Below, piece after piece: positions 1 to 47,909 of a stretch of 47,909 nt of DNA; the first letter of the stretch is position 1, and each line of letters starts with the position of its first letter. Source of the stretch: a virus; the IMG/VR virus record IMGVR_UViG_3300028800_002454, positions 1 through 47,909 of that record; one strand, 5' to 3'. The notes below the pieces were generated by a model, which saw only the letters and a list, made by a program, of their open reading frames with translations, did no database searches and was not told where the DNA came from. The translations under genes and the position numbers were made by a program.

Positions 1-3000
1 ATGGCCAAGACCACCACCAAGCCCTGGCACCAGGTCGTGCAGTTGCGCGACGACATCACCAATCAGGAACTGTCACAAAAGCAATTTGCCGCGGATCTGT
101 ATGACGTGGTGATGGGCAGTAACCCGGGCGTGTATCACGACGCCACGGAATTCTTCGCGCTCACCTATCCTACGGTGAAACTGCGCGACTTGGCGCGGGA
201 CGTCACCCACCGCCTGGCGGGTAAGTCCGAAAAGGCGGTGCGCCAACTGCACATGACCTTCGGTGGCGGTAAGACGCACTCCCTGATCACCCTCGTGCAC
301 TTGGTGCGCAATCCCGCGACGCTGCCCGATATCCCGGCGGTGCAACAATTCAAGGCGCACTGCGCGCTTGAAGGCGGGCTGCCCAAGGCGCATGTGGCCT
401 CGGTCGTGTTTGATCGGCTGGACGCCGAAAAGGGTATGGAAGTCACCGCCCCTGACGGCAGCGTGGCGACGGTGAAGATGCCCTGGAGCGCGATCGCTTG
501 GCAGCTTGCCGGCCCGGTCGGCATGAGGCTGCTGAAGAGCGATGGTACGGAGCGCAACACGCCTCCGGCCACTGGCGTGATGGAAGACCTGCTCAAGGTC
601 GCACGGACGGACGGGGCCGGTGTCCTAATCCTCTTCGACGAAGTACTCTGGTTCGTGCGTGTGATGGCCGACACGGATCCGGCGTGGATCGGCCGCATGC
701 GCGAGTTCATGCACAGCTTGACCCAAGCCGTCGCCAAGGTGCCACAGTGCTGCTTGGTCGCGTCTCTGCTGGCGTCAGACCCTGGCAAGATGGACGAGCT
801 TGGCAAGCAGATCAGCAAGGAGCTCTACGACGAATTCAAGCGCGTGGCCGACGAGGGCATCCAGCCGGTCGAAAGCCAGGATGTACCAGAGATCCTGCGG
901 AGACGCCTGCTCAAGCTGGAAAGCTATACCAACAGTTCGCAGTGGCCTAGCCAGGTCTTCGGCGCGCTCAACGGCGTGCAGGGGATCGACGACTACACCG
1001 CGAAGAACCGCGCGGCAGAAGAGAAGCGTTATACGGACGCCTACCCCTTCCACCCGGCGCTGATCGAAACCCTTTATCAGAAGTGGACGCAGCTTGAGGG
1101 CTTTCAACAGACGCGGGGTATCCTCAAGATCCTAGCCTCCGCGCTGCGTGACGCGGTCAAGTGGGACCAGCAACCAATCATTGGCGCGCAGATCTTCTTG
1201 GTAGCCCCGACCGCTGATGGCCTGAGCGTCGCTGCGCGCGAGCTCGCGAATGTAGCTCAACTGGAGCAATACGAAGGCCGCCGGCAGAACTGGACGGCCA
1301 TCTTGGAGGCGGAGCTGGTGCATGCCCGCAAGGCCCAAGACGGCTTGCTCGGCGTGCAACAACGGGAGATCGAGCAAGCCGTGATGGCGACGTTCCTGCA
1401 TTCGCAGCCCATCGGCCAGCGCGCGACCACGCGTGAACTCAAGGTGCTGATCGGCGTGGGTTCGCCTGACCGGATTGAGCTGGACAAGGGCATGTCACGC
1501 TGGTCCGACGCGTCTTGGTACCTCGACGACACGTTTACGAGTGACCGAGAGGGGGGGCTGCCGAAGGTGTGGCGCCTTGGTTCTAAACCGAACCTGAAGC
1601 AGATGCACCACGATGCTCGCCAGAACGTCAGCGTCACTGTGGTCGATGAAGTATTGGAAAAGGAAATCCGCGGCGCGGGCAAGCTGACTGAAGGCGCGCG
1701 CGGCGCCGGTGCGAAGGTACACGTGCTGCCGACGCGCCCTGCGGACATCGAGGATGATGGCGAATTTCACTATGCGGTCTTGGGTCCTAAGGCAGCGAGT
1801 AACGGAAAGCCTAGTGCTGAAGCCAAGCGCTTCATCGATGAGACCACCGGGCCTGAGAAGCCGCGCGCGCAGAACCGCAATGCAGTGGTGCTTGCGGTGC
1901 CGTCCAAGGAGGGCATCGATGTGGCGCGCGAGAAGGTGCGCGACCTGCTTGGCTGGGAGAAGGTCCGTGAGATGCTCAAGGAACGGAGCGATATCGACAC
2001 TGCCGCGACGACCCGACTGGAGGGCAATGTTCGCGCCGGGCGTGGAGAGATGGTGTCGCAAATCGTCATGGCGTACTGCATCGCCGTGACGGTCAATGAC
2101 AGCAACGATGTGGCCGCCTACCGTATCAATGTCGACAACGATCCCTTGTTCCCCAAGATGGTTGCGGATAAGCGCCTTCGTATCGAGAGTACGGCCGTGA
2201 ACGCCGAGGCTTTGCTGCCCGGCGGCCCTTTCGACCTCTGGAGCGCAGGCGACAGGGCACGATTTGTGAAGGACCTTGTCGGCGCCTTTGCCGCCACTGC
2301 CAAGCTGCCGAAGATGCTGAATCGTGCGGCCATTCTGGAGACGCTGCTTCAGGGCTGTGAAGGGGGTGAATTCGTCTTGCGAGTTACGCGCGCCGACAAA
2401 TCGTCTCGGACTTTCTGGAACTACCGCCCCGACGCTAACGCCATCCAAGACACAAGCTTGGAGGTCGTTCTCTCGGATGCTGCTGTTCTCTCCGAGCTGG
2501 ACCCACAGTTGCTCGCGCCCGGTAAGCTGCCTAGACTGTGGGACGAGGAGCCAGTGACTCTTGCCGATCTGTCCGCGTACTTCTCCGGTAAGCACTTCGT
2601 CGAAGTGGACAAAGGAGGCTATACCGAGAACCTGCTGATTCCCGCGGCAACGCCGCAGGCGATCACTGATGCGGTCACCGGTGCCGTCAAAACTGGTCGA
2701 GTCTGGCTGGTCAACGGGACGGTCAGTGTGCTGGCCGAGGAAGTTCCGGCTGGCTTCGTCAACGACACGGTCCAGCTCTTCTCGCCGCCACTACCACTTA
2801 CCAGCGTCGACGTGCTACCGGCGCAATTGCCTTCAGCGTGGCAAGGTGACGCGACCAACGCGCATTTCATTCATGCCGCGTTGTCTTCGAAGGCTAGCAA
2901 GGTGCTGCCTTGGACCCGCGTTGTCAGCGCTCTCGATGAAGCCTTCAGACTCGGACTAATCGAGCGCACGTTCGATTCCGGCGCTTGGCCATGCGACCTC

Positions 3001-3282
3001 GGCGGTGCCGCGGCGGTCAAGATTGTGATCCGTAAGAATGAAGCCAAGGAGCCGACTCCGCCCAAGGACTATGGATCAAAGGCTGCGAGCGCCGATCTCC
3101 AGACTCACGAGGTTCAGGATCTCGCCGACAACATCGACGCCCTCCGTGAGGCAACCGCTGGGCATCCATTGCGCATCCGTGTAACGGTGGAAATCGGTGA
3201 CGGCAGCCAAGTTGATCAATCCGTCTTGGACAAAGTGAACGCTGTCCTTGCACAGATCAAAGAAGGTTGGAAGGCTGAGTAA
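1..3282 (+). CDS. DUF499-family P-loop ATPase of an anti-phage/modification cluster
   Basis: A 1093-residue protein that reads from an ATG at the first base of the window. The N-terminus (about residues 8-110) has the DUF499 pattern: PWHQVVQLRDD, FAADLYDVV, FFALTYPT and a Walker A-like FGGGKTH at 87-93, where the family shows GGGKTH rather than a textbook GxxxxGKT. A Walker B-like strand, LILFDEVLW, lies near 209-217. DUF499 proteins are large ATPases related to the BrxC/PglY type. They usually lie in clusters with a DNA methyltransferase (often DUF1156), a phospholipase-D nuclease and a helicase, where they are thought to couple ATP hydrolysis to DNA recognition. Here the partner gene just downstream is cut by the prophage, so the system may be inactive or altered. 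Family call is firm; role in this cell is inferred. Confidence 0.88.
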   Translation: MAKTTTKPWHQVVQLRDDITNQELSQKQFAADLYDVVMGSNPGVYHDATEFFALTYPTVKLRDLARDVTHRLAGKSEKAVRQLHMTFGGGKTHSLITLVHLVRNPATLPDIPAVQQFKAHCALEGGLPKAHVASVVFDRLDAEKGMEVTAPDGSVATVKMPWSAIAWQLAGPVGMRLLKSDGTERNTPPATGVMEDLLKVARTDGAGVLILFDEVLWFVRVMADTDPAWIGRMREFMHSLTQAVAKVPQCCLVASLLASDPGKMDELGKQISKELYDEFKRVADEGIQPVESQDVPEILRRRLLKLESYTNSSQWPSQVFGALNGVQGIDDYTAKNRAAEEKRYTDAYPFHPALIETLYQKWTQLEGFQQTRGILKILASALRDAVKWDQQPIIGAQIFLVAPTADGLSVAARELANVAQLEQYEGRRQNWTAILEAELVHARKAQDGLLGVQQREIEQAVMATFLHSQPIGQRATTRELKVLIGVGSPDRIELDKGMSRWSDASWYLDDTFTSDREGGLPKVWRLGSKPNLKQMHHDARQNVSVTVVDEVLEKEIRGAGKLTEGARGAGAKVHVLPTRPADIEDDGEFHYAVLGPKAASNGKPSAEAKRFIDETTGPEKPRAQNRNAVVLAVPSKEGIDVAREKVRDLLGWEKVREMLKERSDIDTAATTRLEGNVRAGRGEMVSQIVMAYCIAVTVNDSNDVAAYRINVDNDPLFPKMVADKRLRIESTAVNAEALLPGGPFDLWSAGDRARFVKDLVGAFAATAKLPKMLNRAAILETLLQGCEGGEFVLRVTRADKSSRTFWNYRPDANAIQDTSLEVVLSDAAVLSELDPQLLAPGKLPRLWDEEPVTLADLSAYFSGKHFVEVDKGGYTENLLIPAATPQAITDAVTGAVKTGRVWLVNGTVSVLAEEVPAGFVNDTVQLFSPPLPLTSVDVLPAQLPSAWQGDATNAHFIHAALSSKASKVLPWTRVVSALDEAFRLGLIERTFDSGAWPCDLGGAAAVKIVIRKNEAKEPTPPKDYGSKAASADLQTHEVQDLADNIDALREATAGHPLRIRVTVEIGDGSQVDQSVLDKVNAVLAQIKEGWKAE

Positions 3283-23724: not shown

Positions 23725-25433
23725 ATAATCATGAGGGTATAGTTGTCCGGCATCTTCAGCGTCCCATCCCCGACCAGTGCGCGAGACAGCGCCATGATCA
23801 GCGCCACAATCCCGTCGATCTTGTTCTCGGGGCGCTCTTTGCGCGGGTAGATGTTGTCCTTTGCATCGAGGTGGGCGACCACGTTGCTCGCCATCCAACC
23901 GAGCACCGGATCGCCGTCGTGGATGAGCTTGCGCTGCAGCACGAGCGCCTCCAGCGCCTTCATCGGTTCCGAGAAATTCAGCACGGTCGGCCGCACCTCG
24001 ATCATCGGCAGGCCTTCCGCCAGCATCCGCGTCGACAGCTGCGTCGCCTGGAACGGATCGAACGCCACGCCCTGCACCTGAAAGCGACTGACCAGCTCAA
24101 GCAGATCGGCCTCGATCCAGCCGAAATCGATCACATTGCCCGGTGTGACTGTCAGTCGCCCGGTGCGCATCCAGCCCGCGTACTGGCTGTTGCCGGTCGC
24201 CATCACGGTGTCCTCTGGCAGGTAGTAGCGCCCGAAGACTGCGTATCCGCCTTCGATCTCGGGATGCTCGAACAGCAGCATCAGCGCGGCGATATCTGTC
24301 TTGCTTGCAAGGTCGAGTCCAATCCAGCAGGGCTGTCCGGCAAACGTATCGAGATCGAGCGCGGCATCGGCGCATCGGTCCCACGCCCGCATGTCCATCC
24401 ACGCGGTGTCGGCGTTGACCCATTCGTCGAGGTGCTTGGTCTTGAAGTTGTTGACGGCGCTGGGCAACTGCATCGCCTTCGCCTGCAACGGCACCAGGAC
24501 ATCGGGCTGGACTGAGATGCCCCAGTTGGGATTTGCCTTGATCAGCGCTTCTTCGGTGGTCCAGTCGTCGCCGTCATCAAGGCCGTACACGATGCCGAAC
24601 TGGCTGTCGTCCTCGAACACGCCATCAAGCAGCCTGGTGACGAAGGTGCGGATCTCATAGCAGATGCCCGCCCGGTTGCTGCCCGCCGTCGTGATCACCC
24701 ACAGCAGGGAGTTGTTTCGTTTGCCGGTACCGGTCTCGACCACGTCATAGACGGTGCGCGTCTTGTGCGCGTGCAGCTCATCGACACAGCCGAAGTGAAT
24801 GTTCAGACCGTCGAGCGTCGAACCCTCTGCGGACAGGGCTTCAAATTTCGAGCCGGACGCCAGCACGTTCATATTGTGGGCGCCGACCGCGACGCCAAAG
24901 CGGGAGCGGAAGCCACTTGAGCGCCGGGCCATCGTCTGGGCGTCGCCGAACACGATCCGCGCCTGATCGCGCGTGGTCGCCAGCGAATACACCTCGGCGC
25001 CGCCTTCGCCATCGGCGGCCAGCATATAGAGGCCAACCGCCGACGACAGCGTCGATTTGGCGTTGCCGCGCGGTACCTCGATATACGCGCGCCGGAAGCG
25101 CCGCTTGCCATCTGCCTGGACCCAGCCGAACACGGTGGTCAGAATGAACACCTGCCATGGCTCGAGCGTGATCGGTTCACCGGCAAGCGGTCCCTTCACG
25201 TGCGGCAGGCGCTCGATAAAGGCGCACAGGTTGTCGGCCGGCGCGAACGCCTTGCCGGTTCGATCCGTCAGTTTCGGATTGAAGCGGTACGGGCTGCTCT
25301 TGCCCTTGAAGCGGGCGAGATCGTTCAGCTGCCGCTGGCAGGCCAGCTTAACCCACCGACAGGCGGGTACGTCACCTGCGATGACCGATTCCGCGTAGAG
25401 CTTCGCGGTGACCGCGTAGGTGCTGACAGCCAT
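23721..25433 (-). CDS. Terminase large subunit (HK97-type, Terminase_1)
   Basis: About 570 residues from ATG 25433, whose first base is the last base of the small-subunit stop (TGATG). The ATPase domain has the Walker A variant EVPRGNAKST (about 119-128) after the adenine-binding EPWQ motif (91-94), and VYSLATTRDQARIVF further on. The C-terminal RNase H-like nuclease begins around WIGLDLASKTDIAALM, where D and D are metal ligands. The enzyme cuts concatemeric DNA and pumps it into proheads through the portal. Confidence 0.92.
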   Translation of the reverse strand: MAVSTYAVTAKLYAESVIAGDVPACRWVKLACQRQLNDLARFKGKSSPYRFNPKLTDRTGKAFAPADNLCAFIERLPHVKGPLAGEPITLEPWQVFILTTVFGWVQADGKRRFRRAYIEVPRGNAKSTLSSAVGLYMLAADGEGGAEVYSLATTRDQARIVFGDAQTMARRSSGFRSRFGVAVGAHNMNVLASGSKFEALSAEGSTLDGLNIHFGCVDELHAHKTRTVYDVVETGTGKRNNSLLWVITTAGSNRAGICYEIRTFVTRLLDGVFEDDSQFGIVYGLDDGDDWTTEEALIKANPNWGISVQPDVLVPLQAKAMQLPSAVNNFKTKHLDEWVNADTAWMDMRAWDRCADAALDLDTFAGQPCWIGLDLASKTDIAALMLLFEHPEIEGGYAVFGRYYLPEDTVMATGNSQYAGWMRTGRLTVTPGNVIDFGWIEADLLELVSRFQVQGVAFDPFQATQLSTRMLAEGLPMIEVRPTVLNFSEPMKALEALVLQRKLIHDGDPVLGWMASNVVAHLDAKDNIYPRKERPENKIDGIVALIMALSRALVGDGTLKMPDNYTLMII

Positions 25434-25891
25434 CAGCCCGCAATCTCCGACCACGGATCGAGATCGTCGGCAGCCTCGACCGGCAGCATGACGCGCGAGC
25501 GCGACGCCGGGGTGAAGCCCATCTCGGTTGCCGCCTTCGTCATGATCTGTGCCTGCTTGTTGGCGATCGCGAGGTATGGTGACTGCATCGGCACGCCCGT
25601 ATTCGGTGCCTTGATCAACAACCCTGTCTTCGCGAGGCCTGCCTGGGCCTTGCGATACAGGTCAGCGGCACATGCCCAGACCTCGAGCACGGACATATCA
25701 AGCCGCTTGAGAAGATGGGCTGGCGCGTTGTCGATCGCGTAACGCCACGCATCCTTCGCCCCTTCGCTCATGTACTCAGGCGGGTCGACCAGATCCCCGG
25801 CTGGCTGCGGCTCGCGCGGATTGGTGCGGCATTTCTGCAGCGTGCCCTTGATCTTCTTGACTGTGGTCGGAAGGGGTTTTCGTCCTGCCAT
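25433..25891 (-). CDS. Terminase small subunit, P27 family
   Basis: 152 residues. The start MAGRKPLPTTVKKIKGTLQK and the segment PQPAGDLVDPPEYMSEGAKD are diagnostic of P27-type small terminases; AWRYAIDNAPAHLLKRLDMS and LYRKAQAGLAKTGLLI complete the fold. The protein binds the packaging site and feeds DNA to the large subunit. It lies immediately next to a gene-free palindromic stretch and an HNH nuclease, the usual cos-region layout. Confidence 0.9.
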   Translation of the reverse strand: MAGRKPLPTTVKKIKGTLQKCRTNPREPQPAGDLVDPPEYMSEGAKDAWRYAIDNAPAHLLKRLDMSVLEVWACAADLYRKAQAGLAKTGLLIKAPNTGVPMQSPYLAIANKQAQIMTKAATEMGFTPASRSRVMLPVEAADDLDPWSEIAG

Positions 25892-26565: not shown

Positions 26566-27078
26566 ATGAGCACCATCGAACTGACGCCCACTCAACACGC
26601 GATCCTGGCCTACGCGATCAACCACACGTGCGGCAAGATCGACTGGTTTCCCGACAACATCAAAGGCGCCGCACGCAAGAAGGTGATCGACGGCCTGTCG
26701 AACCGCGCCCTGATTACCACCGTCGGTGCTGACTGGTTTGTGGCCGCCGAGGGTTACGATGCGCTGGGTGTACCGCGCCCTGGACTGGTCGCGCCCGTCG
26801 ATCCGGCCGATCCCGAGATGGAGGCCGCAGTTGAAACCGCCGAAGCGAACCTCGGGATCAAGGCACCACGCCGCACGCGCGAAAACAGCAAGCAATCGCA
26901 GGTGATCGCGATGCTGCGGCGACCGGAAGGCGCGACGATTGCACAGATCTGTGAGGCGACCAATTGGCAAGCCCACACGGTGCGCGGCACGCTGGCCGGC
27001 GCCTTCAAGAAGAAACTCGGCCTTACGCTCGCCTCTGAAAAGGTTGAGGGCGGCGAGCGTGTCTACCGGATCGTATGA
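26566..27078 (+). CDS. DUF3489 protein (winged-helix-like)
   Basis: 170 residues from ATG 26566 with a GAGAGGAG ribosome site. The N-terminal half (LTPTQHAILAYAINHTCGKI, GAARKKVIDGLSNRALI) and the C-terminal block (RENSKQSQVIAMLRRPEGAT, CEATNWQAHTVRGTLAGAFK) are typical of DUF3489, whose C-terminal part looks like a winged helix. The family commonly neighbours DUF2924 proteins and serine recombinases; here those lie 13.5 kb away in the same prophage. It is the only plus-strand gene in the element and ends in a strong stem-loop. Regulatory or DNA-binding role inferred. Confidence 0.82.
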   Translation: MSTIELTPTQHAILAYAINHTCGKIDWFPDNIKGAARKKVIDGLSNRALITTVGADWFVAAEGYDALGVPRPGLVAPVDPADPEMEAAVETAEANLGIKAPRRTRENSKQSQVIAMLRRPEGATIAQICEATNWQAHTVRGTLAGAFKKKLGLTLASEKVEGGERVYRIV

Positions 27079-27082
27079 GAGG

Positions 27083-27110
27083 AATGAGCCCCTGCTTTGA
27101 GGGGCTCATT
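27083..27110. terminator. Stem-loop terminator between converging genes
   Basis: A perfect 11-base inverted repeat (arms 27083-27093 and 27100-27110, AATGAGCCCCT and its complement) with a six-base loop. It lies between the 3' ends of the plus-strand DUF3489 gene and the minus-strand gene at 27116-27613, so it can end transcription from both sides. The A/T ends of the stem provide a short U tract in each direction. Confidence 0.75.
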
Positions 27111-27115
27111 CACTA

Positions 27116-27613
27116 TTACCGCATCGTGCGAAGGAGTTGCTTGTCGAAGTAGTCTCCACCCATAACATCACGCAGGCGACTGTATAACGCGCCTGCTTGT
27201 CGAATGGGTATGTCATCAATGCCGACATCGGCGAGCAAATCCAAGAAAATTTCTACGGGTTCCTCATCGTCTTGAATAGCCGGCTCCATATTCCGAACGG
27301 TCTGGAGATAAGTGTTGCCATTGATCCGATCTCCATCAGGACCGTAGAGCCGCATTTCCAAACCGCGGGCATCGATGTCTGTCGAAAGCAGCGTTCTGGC
27401 ATCCGCCAGTAGGTCGGACACACGATCGGTGCCATTCAGTTGCTCAACGTTGGTCCGATTGACTGCTTTGCGTTTAACACTGAAGTCAGAACGAACTCGC
27501 CTGCCATCACTCCGCCGGTAGAGGCGGAGTTCCGTGCCCTTGGGGAGACCACGAATACGAACGATCCGCTTCGAAAAATCGGACCACTCACTTGATTTGA
27601 TCTTTGCCGTCAT
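27116..27613 (-). CDS. Unknown small protein, autonomously transcribed (moron-like)
   Basis: 165 residues, soluble and highly charged, with no family I recognise. The N-terminal part is strongly basic (ELRLYRRSDGRRVRSDFSVK, RKAVNR); the C-terminal half is acidic (DDEEPVEIFLDLLADVGIDD). The segments ELRLYRRSDG and EMRLYGPDGD look like two copies of a short strand-turn unit about 60 residues apart. The gene has its own near-consensus promoter, is bounded by terminators on both sides and is less GC-rich than its neighbours. This is the usual layout of a prophage cargo gene expressed in the lysogen. Possible roles are superinfection exclusion, anti-defence or host modulation; none can be chosen from sequence. 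Confidence 0.7.
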   Translation of the reverse strand: MTAKIKSSEWSDFSKRIVRIRGLPKGTELRLYRRSDGRRVRSDFSVKRKAVNRTNVEQLNGTDRVSDLLADARTLLSTDIDARGLEMRLYGPDGDRINGNTYLQTVRNMEPAIQDDEEPVEIFLDLLADVGIDDIPIRQAGALYSRLRDVMGGDYFDKQLLRTMR

Positions 27614-27642
27614 TGAAGCCTACCCAGAAAGATGACGAACAA

Positions 27643-27671
27643 ATCTTAAACCCACCCCAGTTTATTGTCAA
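27643..27671 (-). promoter_or_regulatory. Sigma70-type promoter for the 27116-27613 gene
   Basis: On the minus strand: TTGACA (27671-27666), a 17-base spacer, then TAAGAT (27648-27643), about 30 bases before the ATG at 27613. The -35 box is a perfect consensus and the -10 box matches four of six. The promoter lies inside the hairpin that ends the methyltransferase operon, so terminator and promoter are interleaved. Confidence 0.65.
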
Positions 27672-27688
27672 CAAACGGGGGCGGGTTT
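27648..27688. terminator. Stem-loop after the methyltransferase genes
   Basis: A 16-base imperfect inverted repeat (arms 27648-27663 and 27673-27688, 14 of 16 paired) lies just after the stop of the ParB-methyltransferase gene. The plus-strand side is followed by a TTTATTTTATT tract; the minus-strand side has only a short T tract, so its efficiency for the methyltransferase transcript is uncertain. Confidence 0.5.
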
Positions 27689-27691
27689 ATT

Positions 27692-28945
27692 TTATTGATG
27701 AGGTGTCTGTGCGTCGAAGACTAAGCCATCCGCCGCATGGATGGCCTGCTTGCCGCTCCAGTCCTGCCAGCGGCGAACGATAACATCGACGTATTTTGGA
27801 TCGAGCTCGATGAGCCGTGCGCGCCTGCCCGCCTTCTCGCAGGCGATCAGCGTCGAGCCCGAACCGCCGAACGGATCGAGCACGATGTCACGCGTCTTGC
27901 TGCTGTTGCGCACCGCTCGCTCGACGAGTTCGACCGGCTTCATCGTCGGATGTAGATCGTTCTTCGTAGGCTTCTTGATCTGCCACACATCCCCTTGATC
28001 GCGCGCGCCACACCAGAAATGATCCGCCCCGTCGCGCCAACCATAGAGGATCGGCTCGTATTGGCGTTGGTAGTCGGCCCGGCCGAGCGTGAACGTATTC
28101 TTAGCCCAGATGATGAACGTCGACCAGCGGCCGCCCGCTGCACGGAATGCCGACTGCAGCGTGTCCAGTTCGCTCGACGACATGGCGATGTAGACCGAAC
28201 CGTCCGTGACCGCGAGCAGATTGCGGCAGGCATCGGTCAGGAACGTCTCGAAGCCGTCGCCGAGATTGTCGTTCAGGATCGGGCGATTCTTGCCACGCAG
28301 CTTGTCTTTCGCGCTGTTGGCGTAGTTGACGTTATACGGCGGATCGGTGAACACCATGCTGGTCCGTTCATCGCCAAGCAGTGCACGATAGGACTCCGGC
28401 TTCGTCGCGTCGCCGCACAGCAAGCGGTGCTCACCGAGCAGCCAGACGTCGCCTGCACGCGACACCGGCGTTTCCTCAACCTCAGGCACTGAGTCATCGT
28501 CCGTATGCCCAGATCCAGTCGCCGACTCGCCCGCGATCAACGCGTCCCATTCGTCGGCAGTAAAACCCGTAATCGAGAGATCGACGCCGGCATCCTTCAA
28601 TGCCGTCAGCTCGATACCCAACAGCTCATCGTCCCATGAGGCATTCTCGCCGATCTTGTTGTCAGCCAGAATCAGGGCGCGTCGCTGGATGTCGGTCAGA
28701 TGCGCCATTGGTACCACCGGAACATCGACAATACCGAGCTTTCGTGCCGCGAGCAGACGACCATGACCCGCGATTACGTTATTTTGGCCATCGACCAGAA
28801 TCGGTGCCCCCCAGCCGAATTCACGGATGCTGGCTGCGATCTGCGCGACCTGCGCATCGGTATGCCGCTTCGCGTTGTTTGCATACGGGATCAACGCATC
28901 GATCGGCCGCATCTCGACCCTGATGTCGGCAACCGGTTCACGCAT
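27692..28945 (-). CDS. ParB-domain DNA methyltransferase, DPPY type
   Basis: 417 residues from ATG 28945, overlapping the previous methyltransferase stop by eight bases. The N-terminus is a ParB/Srx-like domain (VDGQNNVIAGHGRLLAARKL at about 52-71). The C-terminal part is an N6_N4 methyltransferase with DPPYNVNYAN at about 201 (catalytic motif IV), the SAM-binding DPFGGSGSTL near the end, and HPTMKPVELVERAV. The order (motif IV before the FGGSG motif) is the beta class. Solitary phage methyltransferases of this type protect phage DNA from host restriction. No cognate endonuclease is nearby, so it is likely an orphan. Confidence 0.87.
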   Translation of the reverse strand: MREPVADIRVEMRPIDALIPYANNAKRHTDAQVAQIAASIREFGWGAPILVDGQNNVIAGHGRLLAARKLGIVDVPVVPMAHLTDIQRRALILADNKIGENASWDDELLGIELTALKDAGVDLSITGFTADEWDALIAGESATGSGHTDDDSVPEVEETPVSRAGDVWLLGEHRLLCGDATKPESYRALLGDERTSMVFTDPPYNVNYANSAKDKLRGKNRPILNDNLGDGFETFLTDACRNLLAVTDGSVYIAMSSSELDTLQSAFRAAGGRWSTFIIWAKNTFTLGRADYQRQYEPILYGWRDGADHFWCGARDQGDVWQIKKPTKNDLHPTMKPVELVERAVRNSSKTRDIVLDPFGGSGSTLIACEKAGRRARLIELDPKYVDVIVRRWQDWSGKQAIHAADGLVFDAQTPHQ

Positions 28946-30323
28946 GGTCGGCCTCGGGAATCGTGACGCGTTCGGCCTCCACTTCCTCAAAGCTCAGGCC
29001 GGAACGCGCGAGCGTGATGGATGCGTCGGGATAGTGCTGCATGAAGCGGCGGATCGCGACATCGACATACTCCGGTGCAATTTCCACAGCCCTGCACTGA
29101 CGGCCCGTGCGTTCGGCCGCGATGAGCGACGTGCCGGAACCGTTGAACGGCTCGAACACGATGTCACCCGCATCCGAGTACGCGAGCATGATGTGCTCGG
29201 GCAGCGCGACCGGGAACACGGCCGGATGATCAATGCTGTCGCCGATCGGCCCCTTGTGCCGCATGATGCGAATCACCGAATCAGGAATGCGCGTGTCCTG
29301 CGTGGGCTTGCCGGCATGCGACCAGCCACCGACCTCGCCGTCCTTCCTGCGCATCGCCGTCGACGAGCCATCTGCGCGCAGATGCGAATCCTGGCCAGCA
29401 TGCGTGCATGGCACGATCTTGTTCGGACGACGTGCAGTGCGATTGAAGTGGAACACGAACTCAAAGCTCGGTGCGAGTCTGCCGTTCCAGTCGCCTGGCA
29501 TCCCTGGCCCCTGATCCCAGACGTACCAGCCGAAGCGTCGCCAGCCACTGGTCTGTATCCATTGGAGCCAGCCGTCCCAGTACGGCACGACTTCGTTGTC
29601 GCGGTGGATGAGGCCGAGATTGACGAGTATCTGGCCGTCAGCGGACATCGGTAACGCAGCGAACACGCCGCGCATCAGCGCGTCCCAGTTACCGATGTCC
29701 CCGGTATAGTCGCGCTGGTTACCGTAGGGCGGTGACGTGAAGCACAACGTGGCCTGCTGGCCGCCCATGACACGGGCCACGACGGATGCATCGGTGGCAT
29801 CGCCGCAGATCAGCCGATGCCGGCCGATGAGCCAGACGTCACCTCTGCGCGTGACAGGCACCACGGGCGGCTCCGACACATCGTCGGCTGGTTCGTCGTT
29901 TTGCGGTCCAGCCTCGCTGTCCTCGTCGAGCAGCTTTGCGATCGCTGCGTCATCGAAGCCGGTCAGTTCGAGGTCGAAGCCCGCTGCCTGCAGATCGGCC
30001 AGTTCCAGCGACAGCAGTTCGTCGTCCCAGCCTCCCCGTTCGGTCAGCCGGTTCTCGGCCAGGATGAACGCACGCTTCTGTGTATTCGAGAGGTGCGACA
30101 GCTCGATCACCGGCAGTTCCGTCATGCCAAGCTGGCGAGCCGCAAGGATGCGACCGTGACCGGCAATGACGCCATGCTGGCCATCAACCAGTACCGGATT
30201 GTTGAAGCCGAACTCGCGGATGCTCGCCGCGATCTGGACCACCTGCTCAGAGCTGTGCGTGCGCGCATTGCGGGCATACGGGATCAGCGACTCGATCGGA
30301 CGATAGTCGATGTGCAGATTCAT
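28938..30323 (-). CDS. ParB-domain DNA methyltransferase, TSPPY type
   Basis: 461 residues, paralogous in layout to the next gene: the ParB/Srx-like domain (VDGQHGVIAGHGRILAARQL at about 47-66), then a methyltransferase with TSPPYGNQRDY at about 196 and the SAM motif EPFNGSGTSL. TSPPY is the motif IV form most often seen in N4-cytosine enzymes, whereas its partner has DPPY, so the two may modify different bases or sites. The start at 30323 is chosen because the upstream MSCLVGFFFLP codons lie in a hairpin and T tract; no good ribosome site is visible there. Confidence 0.85.
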   Translation of the reverse strand: MNLHIDYRPIESLIPYARNARTHSSEQVVQIAASIREFGFNNPVLVDGQHGVIAGHGRILAARQLGMTELPVIELSHLSNTQKRAFILAENRLTERGGWDDELLSLELADLQAAGFDLELTGFDDAAIAKLLDEDSEAGPQNDEPADDVSEPPVVPVTRRGDVWLIGRHRLICGDATDASVVARVMGGQQATLCFTSPPYGNQRDYTGDIGNWDALMRGVFAALPMSADGQILVNLGLIHRDNEVVPYWDGWLQWIQTSGWRRFGWYVWDQGPGMPGDWNGRLAPSFEFVFHFNRTARRPNKIVPCTHAGQDSHLRADGSSTAMRRKDGEVGGWSHAGKPTQDTRIPDSVIRIMRHKGPIGDSIDHPAVFPVALPEHIMLAYSDAGDIVFEPFNGSGTSLIAAERTGRQCRAVEIAPEYVDVAIRRFMQHYPDASITLARSGLSFEEVEAERVTIPEADHA

Positions 30324-30329
30324 GGGCAG

Positions 30330-30366
30330 AAAAAAGAAACCCACCAGGCATGACACCGGGCGGGTT
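30330..30366 (-). terminator. Hairpin plus T tract directly before a methyltransferase start
   Basis: On the minus strand an imperfect GC-rich stem (around AACCCGCCCGG / CCTGGTGGGTT) is followed by TTTCTTTTTT, ending about seven bases before the ATG at 30323. It resembles a rho-independent terminator at the end of the early operon, with the methyltransferase gene immediately after it. Read-through or antitermination could control methyltransferase expression. The surrounding gap (30324-30568) has no gene. Confidence 0.55.
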
Positions 30367-38618: not shown

Positions 38619-39110
38619 TCAGACTGGACGTTCGGGGAATCCGAGCAGCCGGCGCTGCTCGGCCCAGTCTCGGGGTAGCAATGCTGCGCGGCCGCGCAGC
38701 GCGTGAAGATCCAGTTGCCGCGGTTGCCGTCCGTCGAAAATCGCCTCAATGATGTCGGGCGCAAGCAGCGTCAGGCGCAGCACCTCGGCCACCCAGCCGG
38801 GCTCGAGCTTCAACGTCCGCGCCAGCTCCGTGGCCGTCGCATAATGGCCCTGCTCGATCTGCCGCTTCCAGTAGAAAGCCTTGCCGAGCATGCGAATCAT
38901 CGGCAGGTCGATTCCGCCGCCCGTTATCGCGGAGTGCTCACCCGGTGGTGGGATCAGCAGCTTGCGGTTGTGCCGTCGTTTCACGGACAGCGCTACGGTC
39001 GTGACGCGCTGCGTGCCGTCGTAATAGCTGCGAGAACCGCCGGCCACCTCGACGCGGATCGTGCGCGGATCCGGCGGCAGACACTTCGCGCCCGAGGTGT
39101 CGCGCTTCAT
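38619..39110 (-). CDS. HTH (KorB/ParB-like) protein coupled to the recombinase
   Basis: 163 residues whose ATG overlaps the recombinase stop (ATGA). The middle contains ATATELARTLKLEPGWVAEV, LRLTLLAPDIIEAIFDGRQP, the ParB/KorB-type HTH in which a helix pair is followed by L-A-P-x-I-x-E-A-I-x-x-G-x-Q-P. Proteins of this shape commonly follow serine recombinases in DUF2924-type mobile modules. It probably binds DNA at the att site or the module promoter. The exact role is unknown. Confidence 0.68.
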   Translation of the reverse strand: MKRDTSGAKCLPPDPRTIRVEVAGGSRSYYDGTQRVTTVALSVKRRHNRKLLIPPPGEHSAITGGGIDLPMIRMLGKAFYWKRQIEQGHYATATELARTLKLEPGWVAEVLRLTLLAPDIIEAIFDGRQPRQLDLHALRGRAALLPRDWAEQRRLLGFPERPV

Positions 39111-40525
39111 CGCGCCACCTCCATCGCGTCCGGGCGAGATTCCTCGACGAGCGGGTGCGCGCTGATGTCCTGACCGAGGCCGAGCCAGCCATCCTCACGC
39201 CAGTGGATGTCGAGTCCCTGCGCATGCAGCTGGACTCGTTCGATCAGGAGTCGCGCGAGCCGCTGCTGCTCCACCGGAAACAGCTGCTCCCACACCGCGC
39301 CGATGCGCTGCATGGCCACGACCACCTGTGGTTCATCGAGCGCCGCGCCGGCGGGATGCCGTTGGCATGACCGCCATGCGCCGATCAGCACCTCGGGCGC
39401 GCTCAAGGCCGCATGAATCTGGACCAGCACGGCCTGCTCGATCTCGGCTGCGGGCAGATGGCCCGTGCCGGGGATCTCCGGAGCGAGCGTCGCGCCGGCA
39501 TGTCGGCGCTTATGCAGGTAGGGCACGTAGTACCGGTAGATCCGGCCGCTTTTCTTGCGCACGAACGTGTGTAGCATGCGCTGGCCATCCGGTGCAAAGA
39601 GCAGCCCGGCGAGCAGTGCCGAGTGCTTTGAGCGCCGCTCGCGTGGGCCCTGCTGGCGTCGTTCAATGAATGCGTGCGCAGCGTTCCACAGTTCCTGCGG
39701 CACTATGGGCTCATGCTGCCCGGCGAAATACTGGCCCTTGTGGTGGATCTCGCCGAGATACACGCGGCTGCGCAGTACATGGAAAATGAACTGCTGGTCG
39801 ATCGGACGACCAGTACGGTGACGCCCGTCTTGCGTGACCCATGCCTTGGTGGTGCGACCTTCGATGGCGAACTCGCGCACGAGACGCGCCGCCGATCCGT
39901 GTTCGCCATACCGCCGGAAGATATCCCGCACGAGCATGGCCTCCGGCTCATTGACGACCAGTCGCCGATCGACGACGTCGTAGCCGAGCGGCGGCATGCC
40001 ACCCATCCACATGCCACGCGCCTTGCTCGCGGCAAACTTGTCGCGGATGCGCTCGCCCGTCACCTCGCGCTCGAACTGCGCGAACGACAGCAGAATGTTC
40101 AGCGTCAGTCGCCCCATCGAGGTCGTCGTGTTGAACTGCTGCGTGACGGCGACAAAAGAGACACCGCACCGGTCGAACACGTCGACGAGTCGAGCAAAAT
40201 CCGGGAGACTGCGCGTGAGCCGGTCGATCTTGTAGACCACCACGATGTCGATCGTGCCAGCCTCGATATCGGCAAGCAGTCGCTGCAATGATGGCCGATC
40301 GAGATTGCCGCCGGAATATCCGCCGTCGTCGTACCCGTCGTTCACCGCGATCCAGCCCTCGTGACGCTGGCTTGCGATGTAGGCGAGACCCGCATCGCGC
40401 TGTGCTTCGAGGCTGTTGTATTCTTGATCGAGGCCTTCGTCGCTGGACTTCCGCGTGTACACGGCACAGCGTTTTTTCGGGGTGACCGTAGCAGGCATGG
40501 GCGCGATGTTGCGTGTCCCCTTCAT
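39107..40525 (-). CDS. Serine recombinase (prophage integrase)
   Basis: 472 residues from ATG 40525, which overlaps the DUF2924 stop. The resolvase domain has CAVYTRKSSDEG with the nucleophile serine at about 27, VVYKIDRLTRSLPDFARLVD, and LTLNILLSFAQFEREVTGER leading into the long E helix. The recombinase domain follows (GGMPPLGYDVVDRRLVVNEP). Where large serine integrases usually have a zinc ribbon, this protein reads LLAGLLFAPDGQRMLHTFV without the cysteines. Mid-length for the group. It would integrate and excise the prophage without host factors. Confidence 0.9.
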   Translation of the reverse strand: MKGTRNIAPMPATVTPKKRCAVYTRKSSDEGLDQEYNSLEAQRDAGLAYIASQRHEGWIAVNDGYDDGGYSGGNLDRPSLQRLLADIEAGTIDIVVVYKIDRLTRSLPDFARLVDVFDRCGVSFVAVTQQFNTTTSMGRLTLNILLSFAQFEREVTGERIRDKFAASKARGMWMGGMPPLGYDVVDRRLVVNEPEAMLVRDIFRRYGEHGSAARLVREFAIEGRTTKAWVTQDGRHRTGRPIDQQFIFHVLRSRVYLGEIHHKGQYFAGQHEPIVPQELWNAAHAFIERRQQGPRERRSKHSALLAGLLFAPDGQRMLHTFVRKKSGRIYRYYVPYLHKRRHAGATLAPEIPGTGHLPAAEIEQAVLVQIHAALSAPEVLIGAWRSCQRHPAGAALDEPQVVVAMQRIGAVWEQLFPVEQQRLARLLIERVQLHAQGLDIHWREDGWLGLGQDISAHPLVEESRPDAMEVAR

Positions 40526-41390: not shown

Positions 41391-43226
41391 TCAGACGTCG
41401 ATGGGCGATGTCTTCCAAACGTCCTGCACCAAGGTTATCAGCAGCGCGTGACGGGCTTCGATGGTCTTTGCATCCCAAACAGGAAATGCCTTCAGCTTTT
41501 CGTTGATTCGGGAAATGGAGGTGTTCTGACCGACGTTGGTCAGCTCAGCCAAACTGCGCGTGAGATAGTTCCCGCTCTTGCAGTACTCGGCCTGTTTCTT
41601 CGCGTAAAAATCATTGCCGGCGACAATATTGATTGGCTTTTCTAACAAAGTCAGATTACCGAGCCGGTTTTTGTAGCCATCGTAATCTGCACCGGGATTT
41701 TCCTCAGCCCACTTGGCACGCAGTTCGGGCGTTGGCGTATTGGGCAGAATATGCTCGATCTCCAGACTGGTAAACGGGCCCAAGCTACTGTGCGTTTTCA
41801 GCCCGCTGAAAGCCATATCGACATACTGCGTCAGACGTGCCAGCAAATAGCGCGTGCGGTATTGCTGCATCGAATACAGGGTGAAACGTCGCAATGCATC
41901 GACCAGTTCCTGAGATTTTCCGGCCATGCTCGTATCGAAGCGGTCAGCAATGAATGCGTTGAGCTGCGCCTTCTGCTTAAGCGGATCCGCGATGGCGGCA
42001 ATGGTGCGAATTTCATCGGCCCATTGAGAGAAGTTGCGCTCTAGATCCTTGGTCGGCGTCTTCGTGAAAATGTAGTAGAAGAGGAAGCTCTCCAACTGCG
42101 CCACGAAGTGCTCAAACAGCGGCTTGGGGAAATTGGCGGCCGCCAGCAGCAAAACGTAATGCAAGCTGAACGCGCCACCGGCCAAACGCTTGAGACTATC
42201 CATCGCCAGACTGGGTTTGCCGTCATTACCCAGTCCGTTGGCAAAGGCCAGGTAGTGCTCGACGTTACGGATCACCTTGCGAACGAACTCGAAGGGCTTG
42301 TTCGCGTAATCGCACATGGCCGCGTTGTCCTTGGCCACGAACCAGTCGTAGATTTCGTCCTCGCGCACCACCGAGTCACCACGCTCGTTCTTAATCACGT
42401 AGTTGGCCATCAGGAAATAGCGCAGGAAGCGCAGCGGCTTTTCCTTTTCTTTCTCCAGCGGCTTGGTGATTTTCTTCCACTCGTCCTTGAGCTGGGTGAA
42501 CTGCGATTGATTGACCTGCGTGAACAATAGGTTCTTCAGCAGATCCATCGGGTTCAGGCCTACGCCGCGCTCGTTGATGGTCTCGAAGATCTTCAGCGCG
42601 CTACTCACGTCGGTGGATATCTGGATGAACACCACGTTGTTGGCCAGATAGCCCCAATACTTCTTCAGCTTGGCGACGTCGTCGTAGTTATCTTTCAGAT
42701 AGTGGTACAGCGTGCTGTAGGCATTGACCAGATTTTCGAGGGAGCCGAAGCTGGCGATCCCTGAAGCCTGAATGCCCGTGCGCACAGCCTGTGGATCGGC
42801 ATCCAACTCCACCAGCTTGGCCATCACTTCGGCCGCATTCTCGTAACGAGGCTCCAGCTTCAGGTTCGTGCGGACCTCGCCGTCGCTGTCCACATAGCTG
42901 GTCGATATCAGTCCGGAAATCATTTGCCGTTGTGGCTCGCCCTGGAACAGATGCTTCAGCGCGCACAGCAGCAGGAAAAATGTGGTCAGGCGCTGCTGAC
43001 CATCGATGACCTCGTAGTGATTCTTTTGATGGGTCGGCGACACCAGTACGGTGCCAATGAAATATTCCCGCGTCGTGCCCCCATCGATCTGCTCACCGAT
43101 ATCCTCCAGTAGCTGATGCACTTCCTTGTCCGTCCAGACGTACTCGCGTTGGTAGTCCGGGACGATGTAGAAGCATTCCCTGAAGGCCTCCTCGATGCTG
43201 TATTTATGGTTTTCGATACGCGCCAT
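41391..43226 (-). CDS. DUF262/DUF1524 protein (GmrSD-like)
   Basis: 611 residues. The N-terminal DUF262 domain shows YIVPDYQREYVWTDKEVHQL (about 20-39) and YEVIDGQQRLTTFFLLLCAL (about 71-90), where DGQQR is the ParB-like NTP-binding motif. The C-terminal DUF1524 HNH-type nuclease is at about 486-520: SLEIEHILPNT, then NRLGNLTLLEKP. This fusion is the architecture of type IV, GmrSD-like enzymes that cleave modified (for example glucosylated) DNA using NTPs; related proteins occur in several defence systems. It follows the ImmA gene by 62 bases on the same strand. Confidence 0.85.
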   Translation of the reverse strand: MARIENHKYSIEEAFRECFYIVPDYQREYVWTDKEVHQLLEDIGEQIDGGTTREYFIGTVLVSPTHQKNHYEVIDGQQRLTTFFLLLCALKHLFQGEPQRQMISGLISTSYVDSDGEVRTNLKLEPRYENAAEVMAKLVELDADPQAVRTGIQASGIASFGSLENLVNAYSTLYHYLKDNYDDVAKLKKYWGYLANNVVFIQISTDVSSALKIFETINERGVGLNPMDLLKNLLFTQVNQSQFTQLKDEWKKITKPLEKEKEKPLRFLRYFLMANYVIKNERGDSVVREDEIYDWFVAKDNAAMCDYANKPFEFVRKVIRNVEHYLAFANGLGNDGKPSLAMDSLKRLAGGAFSLHYVLLLAAANFPKPLFEHFVAQLESFLFYYIFTKTPTKDLERNFSQWADEIRTIAAIADPLKQKAQLNAFIADRFDTSMAGKSQELVDALRRFTLYSMQQYRTRYLLARLTQYVDMAFSGLKTHSSLGPFTSLEIEHILPNTPTPELRAKWAEENPGADYDGYKNRLGNLTLLEKPINIVAGNDFYAKKQAEYCKSGNYLTRSLAELTNVGQNTSISRINEKLKAFPVWDAKTIEARHALLITLVQDVWKTSPIDV

Positions 43227-43288: not shown

Positions 43289-44158
43289 TCATCTTGTGCC
43301 TGCTGCATTCCAGCGACGCGGCTCCGCATCCTCCAGCAGCAACAGCGTGAGCACGCGATCACGCGCGGCATACGTATGCTTGAATTCGTGGAGTTTCATG
43401 TACGGCGCTTCGTCTGTACACCATAGCGACGCCGGAAGCTCGACGCCGTCACGCTCCTGCAAAACACTGGTGTCTGCGGCGATGGTTCCTGGCAACGGCT
43501 CGACGGGATTGGTTAGCCGCTGAATTCGTGCTTTGCTCAGAACAGCAGATCGACTGCGCCATTCGTATTTTAAGAATCCGTTGTCCCAGTGCAGCAGGAT
43601 GGCTCGAACGTCAGTGTATTTTATGAAACGAATGCATAGTGCCTCAAAAGACACCTGAAAACGTGACGCGAGCTGACTCAGCAGATGCAGACTGATGGTC
43701 TGCCCGGCCATTGCGTCTCGCAGCATGTCACCCGGCAGCAGCAGATTGCTCGCAAAATCATCCGCCTCGCGCTCAATCACCGCCAGAGTGTCCTGTCCCG
43801 AGTACACGCTTGCCTTATCGCACTGAAAAGACATCTGGCGATCCCGGTGCAGAATAAAATGCCCAAGCTCGTGTGCAATCGTGAATCTTTGGCGCTCGGG
43901 CGTGGCGTTACCGTTATAGAAAATTCCCCACTCGGCAGCATCGTCCGGATTACGCACCAGCATACCTTCACAGCTGGCGATCGGCGAAGGCATCGGAGCC
44001 TTGATCTCGCGGACACCTTTTCCGTAAGGTGTACCCGGCAATCCTTGGCAAACCAACTCAAGGTCAAGCACATCGGATAGCCCTGACGGAAATGCGGTGC
44101 GCAACAGCCGCAGGATAGCTGTCGCCGCCGTGAATCCGTTGAGCGCCACCGCGTTCAT
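43289..44158 (-). CDS. ImmA/IrrE-family metallopeptidase
   Basis: 289 residues. The zinc site is RFTIAHELGHFILHRD (HELGH at 96-100) with the third ligand in VIEREADDFASNLLLPGDML (E131). The C-terminal 140 residues are beta-rich and unassigned (RAILLHWDNGFLKYEWRSRS). Its start overlaps the XRE gene stop (ATGA). XRE-ImmA pairs act as repressor and anti-repressor protease in ICEBs1-type elements, and as toxin-antitoxin/defence pairs such as RosmerTA. Here it may control the downstream DUF262 nuclease. Confidence 0.85.
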   Translation of the reverse strand: MNAVALNGFTAATAILRLLRTAFPSGLSDVLDLELVCQGLPGTPYGKGVREIKAPMPSPIASCEGMLVRNPDDAAEWGIFYNGNATPERQRFTIAHELGHFILHRDRQMSFQCDKASVYSGQDTLAVIEREADDFASNLLLPGDMLRDAMAGQTISLHLLSQLASRFQVSFEALCIRFIKYTDVRAILLHWDNGFLKYEWRSRSAVLSKARIQRLTNPVEPLPGTIAADTSVLQERDGVELPASLWCTDEAPYMKLHEFKHTYAARDRVLTLLLLEDAEPRRWNAAGTR

Positions 44159-46967: not shown

Positions 46968-47909
46968 ATGGCCTCAAAAATGCCCGCTGCCCGCGATGCA
47001 AATGGAAATCGCATCACCATTGAAATGGCGGAAAATGGATCATTTGAAAAACCACTGAAGTGCGAATTTTGCGATGCATCCGTTTCATTTGTGAATGGGC
47101 ATCCAAGGGAAGTGGGGGAGGATATTGTTTTTGTCGAACCCTTTTTTAGGCTGGCGCCCAAAAGCACACATCACGAAGGCTGCAATTACAACTCTGTCGG
47201 CCAACTGACTGTTATTGCTCGGGAATCAGATGGCGACGTTTTTATGGCCATTTCGAATAATCAATTTCAACTTCGATTGCTTGCCGTAAAAAAGGCACTT
47301 GACCAGCTTATTGAACTAGCCAAAACAAAAAAATCCCTCACCGACGATAAGAAATTAATCAGCCAGCAGAAGGAGTACATAGCTAGCGAAGAGAAATTGG
47401 GGGCATACATCAATAGTGCAAAACGGGTGCTTAAGGTTCGCTCCGTATGCGAGAATCATGCCGAGATAGAAAATCTTCTTACTCTCGTATTTGACGGTGT
47501 AAATGTTCCATGGTCTGATTTTTATTTTGAGGACACCGACTATTTTCGGTGCTATCGACAACTTAAAAGCTCAACCACCCAGATACCTATCGCCGTCCAC
47601 GGCACAATCAAATCAATAAAAACCGTACCCGGGAAAAAAGAAAATTTTTCGGTTGTCAATCTTGTACGCCCCATGCGAAACATGGACGAAGCAGATGCTC
47701 GGGAGGTGGCATGCACGTCGATTTGGTCTCCCGATGTTAATTTTTTCTCGGATTACCGAGAGGGGCAGACTATCATTGCATTTGGTATGTGGCAGTGGAA
47801 ACCCGAAAGCAGAATTGCCAATTCCAAAGCGAACTCACCAATCAAAACATTTGTAAATTATGAGATGCGGCTGTGGCCCGTCGCAAAATCTCAGATCTGC
47901 GCGGCTTAA
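46968..47909 (+). CDS. Zinc-finger-like protein of unknown function, AT-rich
   Basis: 313 residues from ATG 46968 with AAGGA upstream, ending with the stop at the last base of the window. The N-terminus has KCEFCDASVSFV and, about 30 residues on, FFRLAPKSTHHEGCNYNSVG: C32, C35, H68/H69 and C72 form a probable zinc site, similar in layout to CoiA-type N-terminal domains. The middle has a lysine-rich helix (LAKTKKSLTDDKKLISQQK). The rest is beta-rich. The gene is much less GC-rich than its neighbours, suggesting recent transfer. Function unknown; possibly the start of another accessory module to the right. Confidence 0.75.
   Translation: MASKMPAARDANGNRITIEMAENGSFEKPLKCEFCDASVSFVNGHPREVGEDIVFVEPFFRLAPKSTHHEGCNYNSVGQLTVIARESDGDVFMAISNNQFQLRLLAVKKALDQLIELAKTKKSLTDDKKLISQQKEYIASEEKLGAYINSAKRVLKVRSVCENHAEIENLLTLVFDGVNVPWSDFYFEDTDYFRCYRQLKSSTTQIPIAVHGTIKSIKTVPGKKENFSVVNLVRPMRNMDEADAREVACTSIWSPDVNFFSDYREGQTIIAFGMWQWKPESRIANSKANSPIKTFVNYEMRLWPVAKSQICAA

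Follow-up and report, generated by a model that had tools for sequence, protein, structure and literature searches.

We find that a 613-bp cassette in a temperate Burkholderiales-type phage, lying between the convergent genes for DNA methylase A and a DUF3489 protein, is very probably a horizontally acquired, self-contained moron set in a dispensable gap. It contains a single long ORF, P0001 (165 codons, with an ATG start and a TAA stop), along with a promoter match and two strong hairpins (Table 1). The cassette is ordinary in kind, yet well delimited. The junction that it occupies holds other small genes in other phages, several of them recognizable as restriction, Fic or toxin-antitoxin genes.

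Setting of the cassette in the phage

The window analyzed here, a virus record of 47,909 nucleotides, represents a temperate phage whose lysogeny genes include a serine recombinase and an M78/IrrE-type protease. Its host is probably a member of the Burkholderiales, judging by the closest relatives. The gene order is methylase A, P0001, DUF3489 and then the small terminase. The gene had been placed between methylases and packaging genes; a methylase does adjoin it, but its other immediate neighbor is the DUF3489 gene, and the small terminase lies beyond that. The 613 bp separate the methylase A stop codon, at 27692, from the DUF3489 stop codon, which ends at 27078. A 60-residue ORF (27253-27435) is nested in P0001 on the same strand. 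Elsewhere in the window, a GmrSD-type gene (41391-43226, minus strand; GmrSD_N/GmrSD_C) with a GC content of 0.54 and a PADLOC match to Orf5/HEC-06 has the serine recombinase on one side and the XRE/IrrE pair on the other; it probably marks a second slot for cargo, occupied by a defence gene. At the left edge lies a DUF499 ATPase-like gene (1-3282, plus strand), possibly part of flanking host DNA or of a prophage-adjacent defence locus, and a gene of GC 0.45 without a Pfam match (46968-47909, plus strand) reaches the right edge.

Table 1. Features of the cassette and of the surrounding phage genes
Feature	Position	Strand	Evidence or remark
Inserted cassette, stop codon to stop codon of convergent DUF3489 and methylase A genes	27079..27691		Locus comparison and junction sequences
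Cargo gene P0001, 165 aa, without recognized family	27116..27613	-	
Candidate ribosome-binding site, GGGTAGG, 5 nt upstream of ATG	27619..27625	-	Direct reading of sequence
Sigma-70-type promoter match TTGACA-17-TAAGAT, ~30 bp upstream of ATG	27643..27671	-	Consensus match only
Upstream hairpin, just behind methylase A stop	27647..27689	-	Fold z -5.4 (minus), -1.9 (plus)
Downstream hairpin, between convergent ends of P0001 and DUF3489	27082..27111		Perfect 12-bp stem, 6-nt loop
DUF3489 protein, flank 1 of the hotspot	26566..27078	+	Pfam PF11994, E 1.3e-34
DNA methylase A (N6_N4_Mtase, weak ParB_N), flank 2 of the hotspot	27692..28990	-	Pfam PF01555, E 1.5e-26
Two N6_N4 methylases	27692-30356		Weak ParB_N matches
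Small terminase	25433-25891		
Serine recombinase	39107-40525		
M78/IrrE-type protease	43289-44158		XRE-like gene adjoins

The methylase-DUF3489 junction across relatives

Relatives were gathered by means of the small terminase, methylase A and the DUF3489 protein, and we determined how far the stop codon of the methylase lies from that of DUF3489. In a first set of 105 distinct loci the junction is mostly empty, and the convergent genes overlap by 4-19 nt or abut. The full set comprises 207 non-redundant loci; the junction is empty (≤60 nt) in 62 and holds 201-5000 nt in 140, and the methylase was not found in the remaining 5. Overlapping stop codons occur at the junction in many further loci. 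Among close relatives, whose flanks are 82-86% identical (the prophage of Paraburkholderia eburnea, for example), the stop codons lie 15-16 nt apart in L001/L238, L086/L236, L237 and the P. eburnea prophage itself (L166), whereas inserts of 391 bp are found in L082/L235 and L085 and one of 957 bp in L089/L239. More distant relatives carry inserts of 657 bp (L011) and 552 bp (L083/L149). The closest relatives show rapid turnover at the junction. With junctions that are empty or different in these relatives, the sequences indicate that P0001, its promoter and both hairpins were gained together, or lost together in the other lineages. Among the outcomes that would speak against cargo, the original prediction named strict conservation in a structural or replication role; this is contradicted.

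The inserts fall into 16 blastn clusters, every one of which is GC-poorer than its flanks (mean difference, -0.083). By single linkage, 144 of 180 inserts form the largest cluster, which includes a conserved family of ~119 residues. This family (MTITIERTPRTL...), which has no Pfam match, is the commonest junction gene (L184:9899-10399, minus strand, and 46 further loci). Pfam identifies a varied set of other cargo: a ParD_like protein with a ParE-like toxin (L168, L079 and others), a TacA-type antitoxin with a GNAT gene (L178), ParE_toxin and RHH_1 (L156), DUF4172 plus Fic and also an HU-type DNA-binding protein (L179), DUF6998 (L149), DUF1413 (L089), a cupin (L163), an RDD protein (L159) and DUF1232 (L133). 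With PADLOC, the L149 gene is assigned as a type II methyl-directed REase (E 2.3e-43) and the L179 Fic gene as SoFic. Promoter matches of 10/12 on the cargo strand are present in L178 and L089 as well, but most other inserts have no near-consensus promoter or strong hairpins, so autonomy is not general to the junction.

Two further inserts deserve mention. A 210-residue gene without a family match (L081:8520-9152, minus strand) contains a possible PD-(D/E)XK-like stretch (VDLEYKSNGQSIRIDVKTS); this reading of the L011/L081 cargo was made by eye and was set aside, as neither Pfam nor PADLOC gave a match. The 569-bp insert of L105, which belongs to the cluster of L151, has three stems, a pair of perfect ones of 12 bp and another of 10 bp, adjoins a second, diverged DUF3489 copy and resembles a repeat or hairpin cluster.

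Promoter and hairpins

A TTGACA box, a 17-base spacer and TAAGAT are present on the P0001 strand at 27671-27643, as originally described. The whole window contains 2 sites that score at least 10/12, against 1.05 +/- 1.16 in shuffles; the count is at chance level, and the case for a promoter therefore rests on placement. Promoter and terminator overlap, since the upstream hairpin carries the -35 box in its loop, and its 3′ arm runs into the -10 box. A good fold of this hairpin is obtained for the minus strand alone, which is the strand of both methylase and cargo, as expected of a methylase terminator; we consider it a probable terminator of that kind, overlapping the cargo promoter. The downstream hairpin folds on both strands (z -6.4 on plus, -4.5 on minus) and its perfect stem is longer than any other in the window, although one of eight shuffles yielded a longer one. 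It is possibly a bidirectional terminator without a U-tract.

The gene had been described as insulated by stem-loops on both sides. Strong hairpins do flank it, but they lack a canonical U-tract and are not standard terminators: neither passes an intrinsic-terminator scan, the downstream hairpin has no T-run on either side, and the upstream hairpin has no more than an interrupted T-rich tail, on the minus strand. An Rfam search gave no match. As a mobile signature, the downstream hairpin has no exact match in IMG/VR. The upstream motif was discarded as an informative signature, since contigs of no relation also contain it as an ordinary hairpin, and a phmmer search of P0001 against contigs with a similar hairpin returned no match.

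Is P0001 a gene?

It is very unlikely that the ORF is non-functional or misread, that is, a decayed gene or a non-coding insert. Several results do lean that way. P0001 has no homologue in the collections searched; when the 613-bp insert is shuffled by dinucleotides, an ORF of this length still arises in 20 of 3000 cases (0.7%), although this also makes the ORF longer than chance would give in that stretch; the codon-model score of the sense frame (0.045 bits per codon) barely exceeds that of the antisense frame (0.035), leaving the two unseparated; and AlphaFold2, given the single sequence, produced no confident structure (pLDDT 46). These points are outweighed by the fit of the ORF, which takes up almost exactly the space from promoter to downstream hairpin, by its ATG with a plausible ribosome-binding site, and by a coding-like GC content at the three codon positions (0.61/0.41/0.55). 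The same values bear out the observation that its composition differs from that of the neighboring phage genes, which have 0.63-0.66/0.44-0.49/0.73-0.82; overall, GC is 0.53 in P0001 versus about 0.63.

That the product belongs to no recognized family holds after profile, sequence and genome searches. P0001 had no significant match in Pfam, PHROGs, NCBIfam, PADLOC or PDB sequences, nor in phage and plasmid collections. Searches of IMG/VR (with the whole protein and its two halves) and of genome contigs, in scans that reach close relatives only, found none. Eight genomes searched by locus gave negative results or weak matches only, as did some 940 genomes of Burkholderiales, and phmmer found no match among 46,929 six-frame ORFs of relatives. 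One genome match (L234, E 1.4e-5) was rejected as chance because it is Arg-rich and lies antisense inside an apparent DNA-glycosylase gene. An internal duplication (GTELRLYRRSDGRRV / GLEMRLYGPDGDRI) was likewise dropped as not significant, an equally high score being reached in 18 of 300 shuffles.

A probable moron in the lysogen

In Burkholderia prophages, morons have been recognized as extra ORFs that break synteny, carry their own control elements and deviate in GC (PMC2920897). Our assignment follows this description. P0001 is an extra gene, absent from close relatives with empty junctions; it has its own promoter, by consensus match, on its own strand; and its GC and GC3 are unlike those of the phage core genes. 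The moron layout that had been proposed is thus upheld by promoter, hairpins, GC, empty site and the other cargo found elsewhere, and weakened in that the hairpins are not canonical terminators. Like the morons of that study, the cassette lies between conserved genes, with terminator-like hairpins, and its site carries other cargo in other phages; unlike them, P0001 belongs to no known family and has no second phage carrier in the collections searched.

As for mechanism, the cassette would begin with a hairpin in which a sigma-70 promoter is embedded, continue with the single gene of 165 codons and close with the second hairpin. Host sigma-70 polymerase would transcribe P0001 leftward in the lysogen, the upstream hairpin would stop methylase transcripts and the downstream hairpin would end the P0001 message. 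With its own promoter, and with hairpins bounding the transcripts, P0001 could be active in an otherwise silent prophage. Such expression in the lysogen is likely, by analogy with phi1026b, in which RNAseq found several morons expressed and most phage genes not (PMC2920897).

Because P0001 is an orphan, any function is guesswork. Conflict or maintenance roles are placed first on account of the other cargo at the junction, much of the identifiable part of which may serve prophage or lysogen in this way; within these, defence or superinfection exclusion would come first, and host modulation or addiction second. That P0001 is an anti-phage or superinfection-exclusion protein made from the lysogen, which narrows the moron reading further, is plausible but falls short of probable. 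Cargo elsewhere at the junction includes the predicted methyl-directed REase, a Fic protein and toxin-antitoxin pairs, and prophage hotspots are known reservoirs of antiviral genes (PMC9122126). On the other hand, P0001 matched no PADLOC defence family even at E 10 and has neither a homologue nor a confident structure, and cupin, RDD, HU-type and DUF1232 cargo also occur at the junction.

It is rather doubtful that P0001 is instead a host-modulating or prophage-maintenance gene (a regulator, an addiction gene or one with a metabolic effect) with no part in defence. Toxin-antitoxin and non-defence families are among the other junction cargo, and the charge distribution of P0001 would suit a small nucleic-acid binder: its first 60 residues are basic (17 K/R, 6 D/E), so that the N-terminal third of the protein may bind nucleic acid, and its C-terminal 55 residues are acidic (6 K/R, 12 D/E). 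Charge by itself is weak evidence, however, and a cassette of one gene, without a toxin or antitoxin domain, does not have the makeup of a type II toxin-antitoxin system.

A role as partner of methylase A, either a restriction or an accessory subunit, is unlikely: P0001 does adjoin methylase A on the same strand, and the predicted methyl-directed REase of L083/L149 has the same spot and strand, but methylase A is present without such a gene in 62 loci, P0001 has its own promoter and is separated from methylase A by a hairpin, and it matches no nuclease family.

The junction as a source of cargo

P2-like phages and P4-like satellites carry prophage hotspots of antiviral systems (PMC9122126). 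We regard the methylase-DUF3489 junction as a cargo hotspot of this general type. It is similar in its fixed position and its variable small cargo, partly restriction, Fic or toxin-antitoxin genes; it differs in the phages concerned and in its flanks, methylase A and DUF3489, and any defence activity of its cargo is predicted. Our literature search found no paper on this junction, and among the papers searched DUF3489 is mentioned only in a general survey of DUF families. Among named phages, the record closest to methylase A is that of Acidithiobacillus phage AcaML1 (JX507079), at 69% identity. AcaML1 has two methylases, small genes and then the terminase in the same order, but its junction is a run of hypothetical genes; the phage collection contained no relative of P0001.

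We put forward, tentatively and as a somewhat unlikely combination, that P0001 is the first member of a new family of prophage defence or superinfection-exclusion proteins, each encoded by a single gene, and that the junction is an undescribed, minable cargo hotspot of proteobacterial prophages. If this were true, further conflict genes could be mined there, such as those encoding the 113-residue protein of L082/L085, the 210-residue protein of L011/L081 and the 339-residue protein of L210. What began as a guess on one orphan gene has become a defined locus, and of the two the junction is of greater use. The methylase and DUF3489 genes suffice to retrieve cargo from prophages of many proteobacteria, and the orphans at the junction, P0001 among them, are reasonable candidates for new functions in phage-host conflict, small enough to be tested individually.
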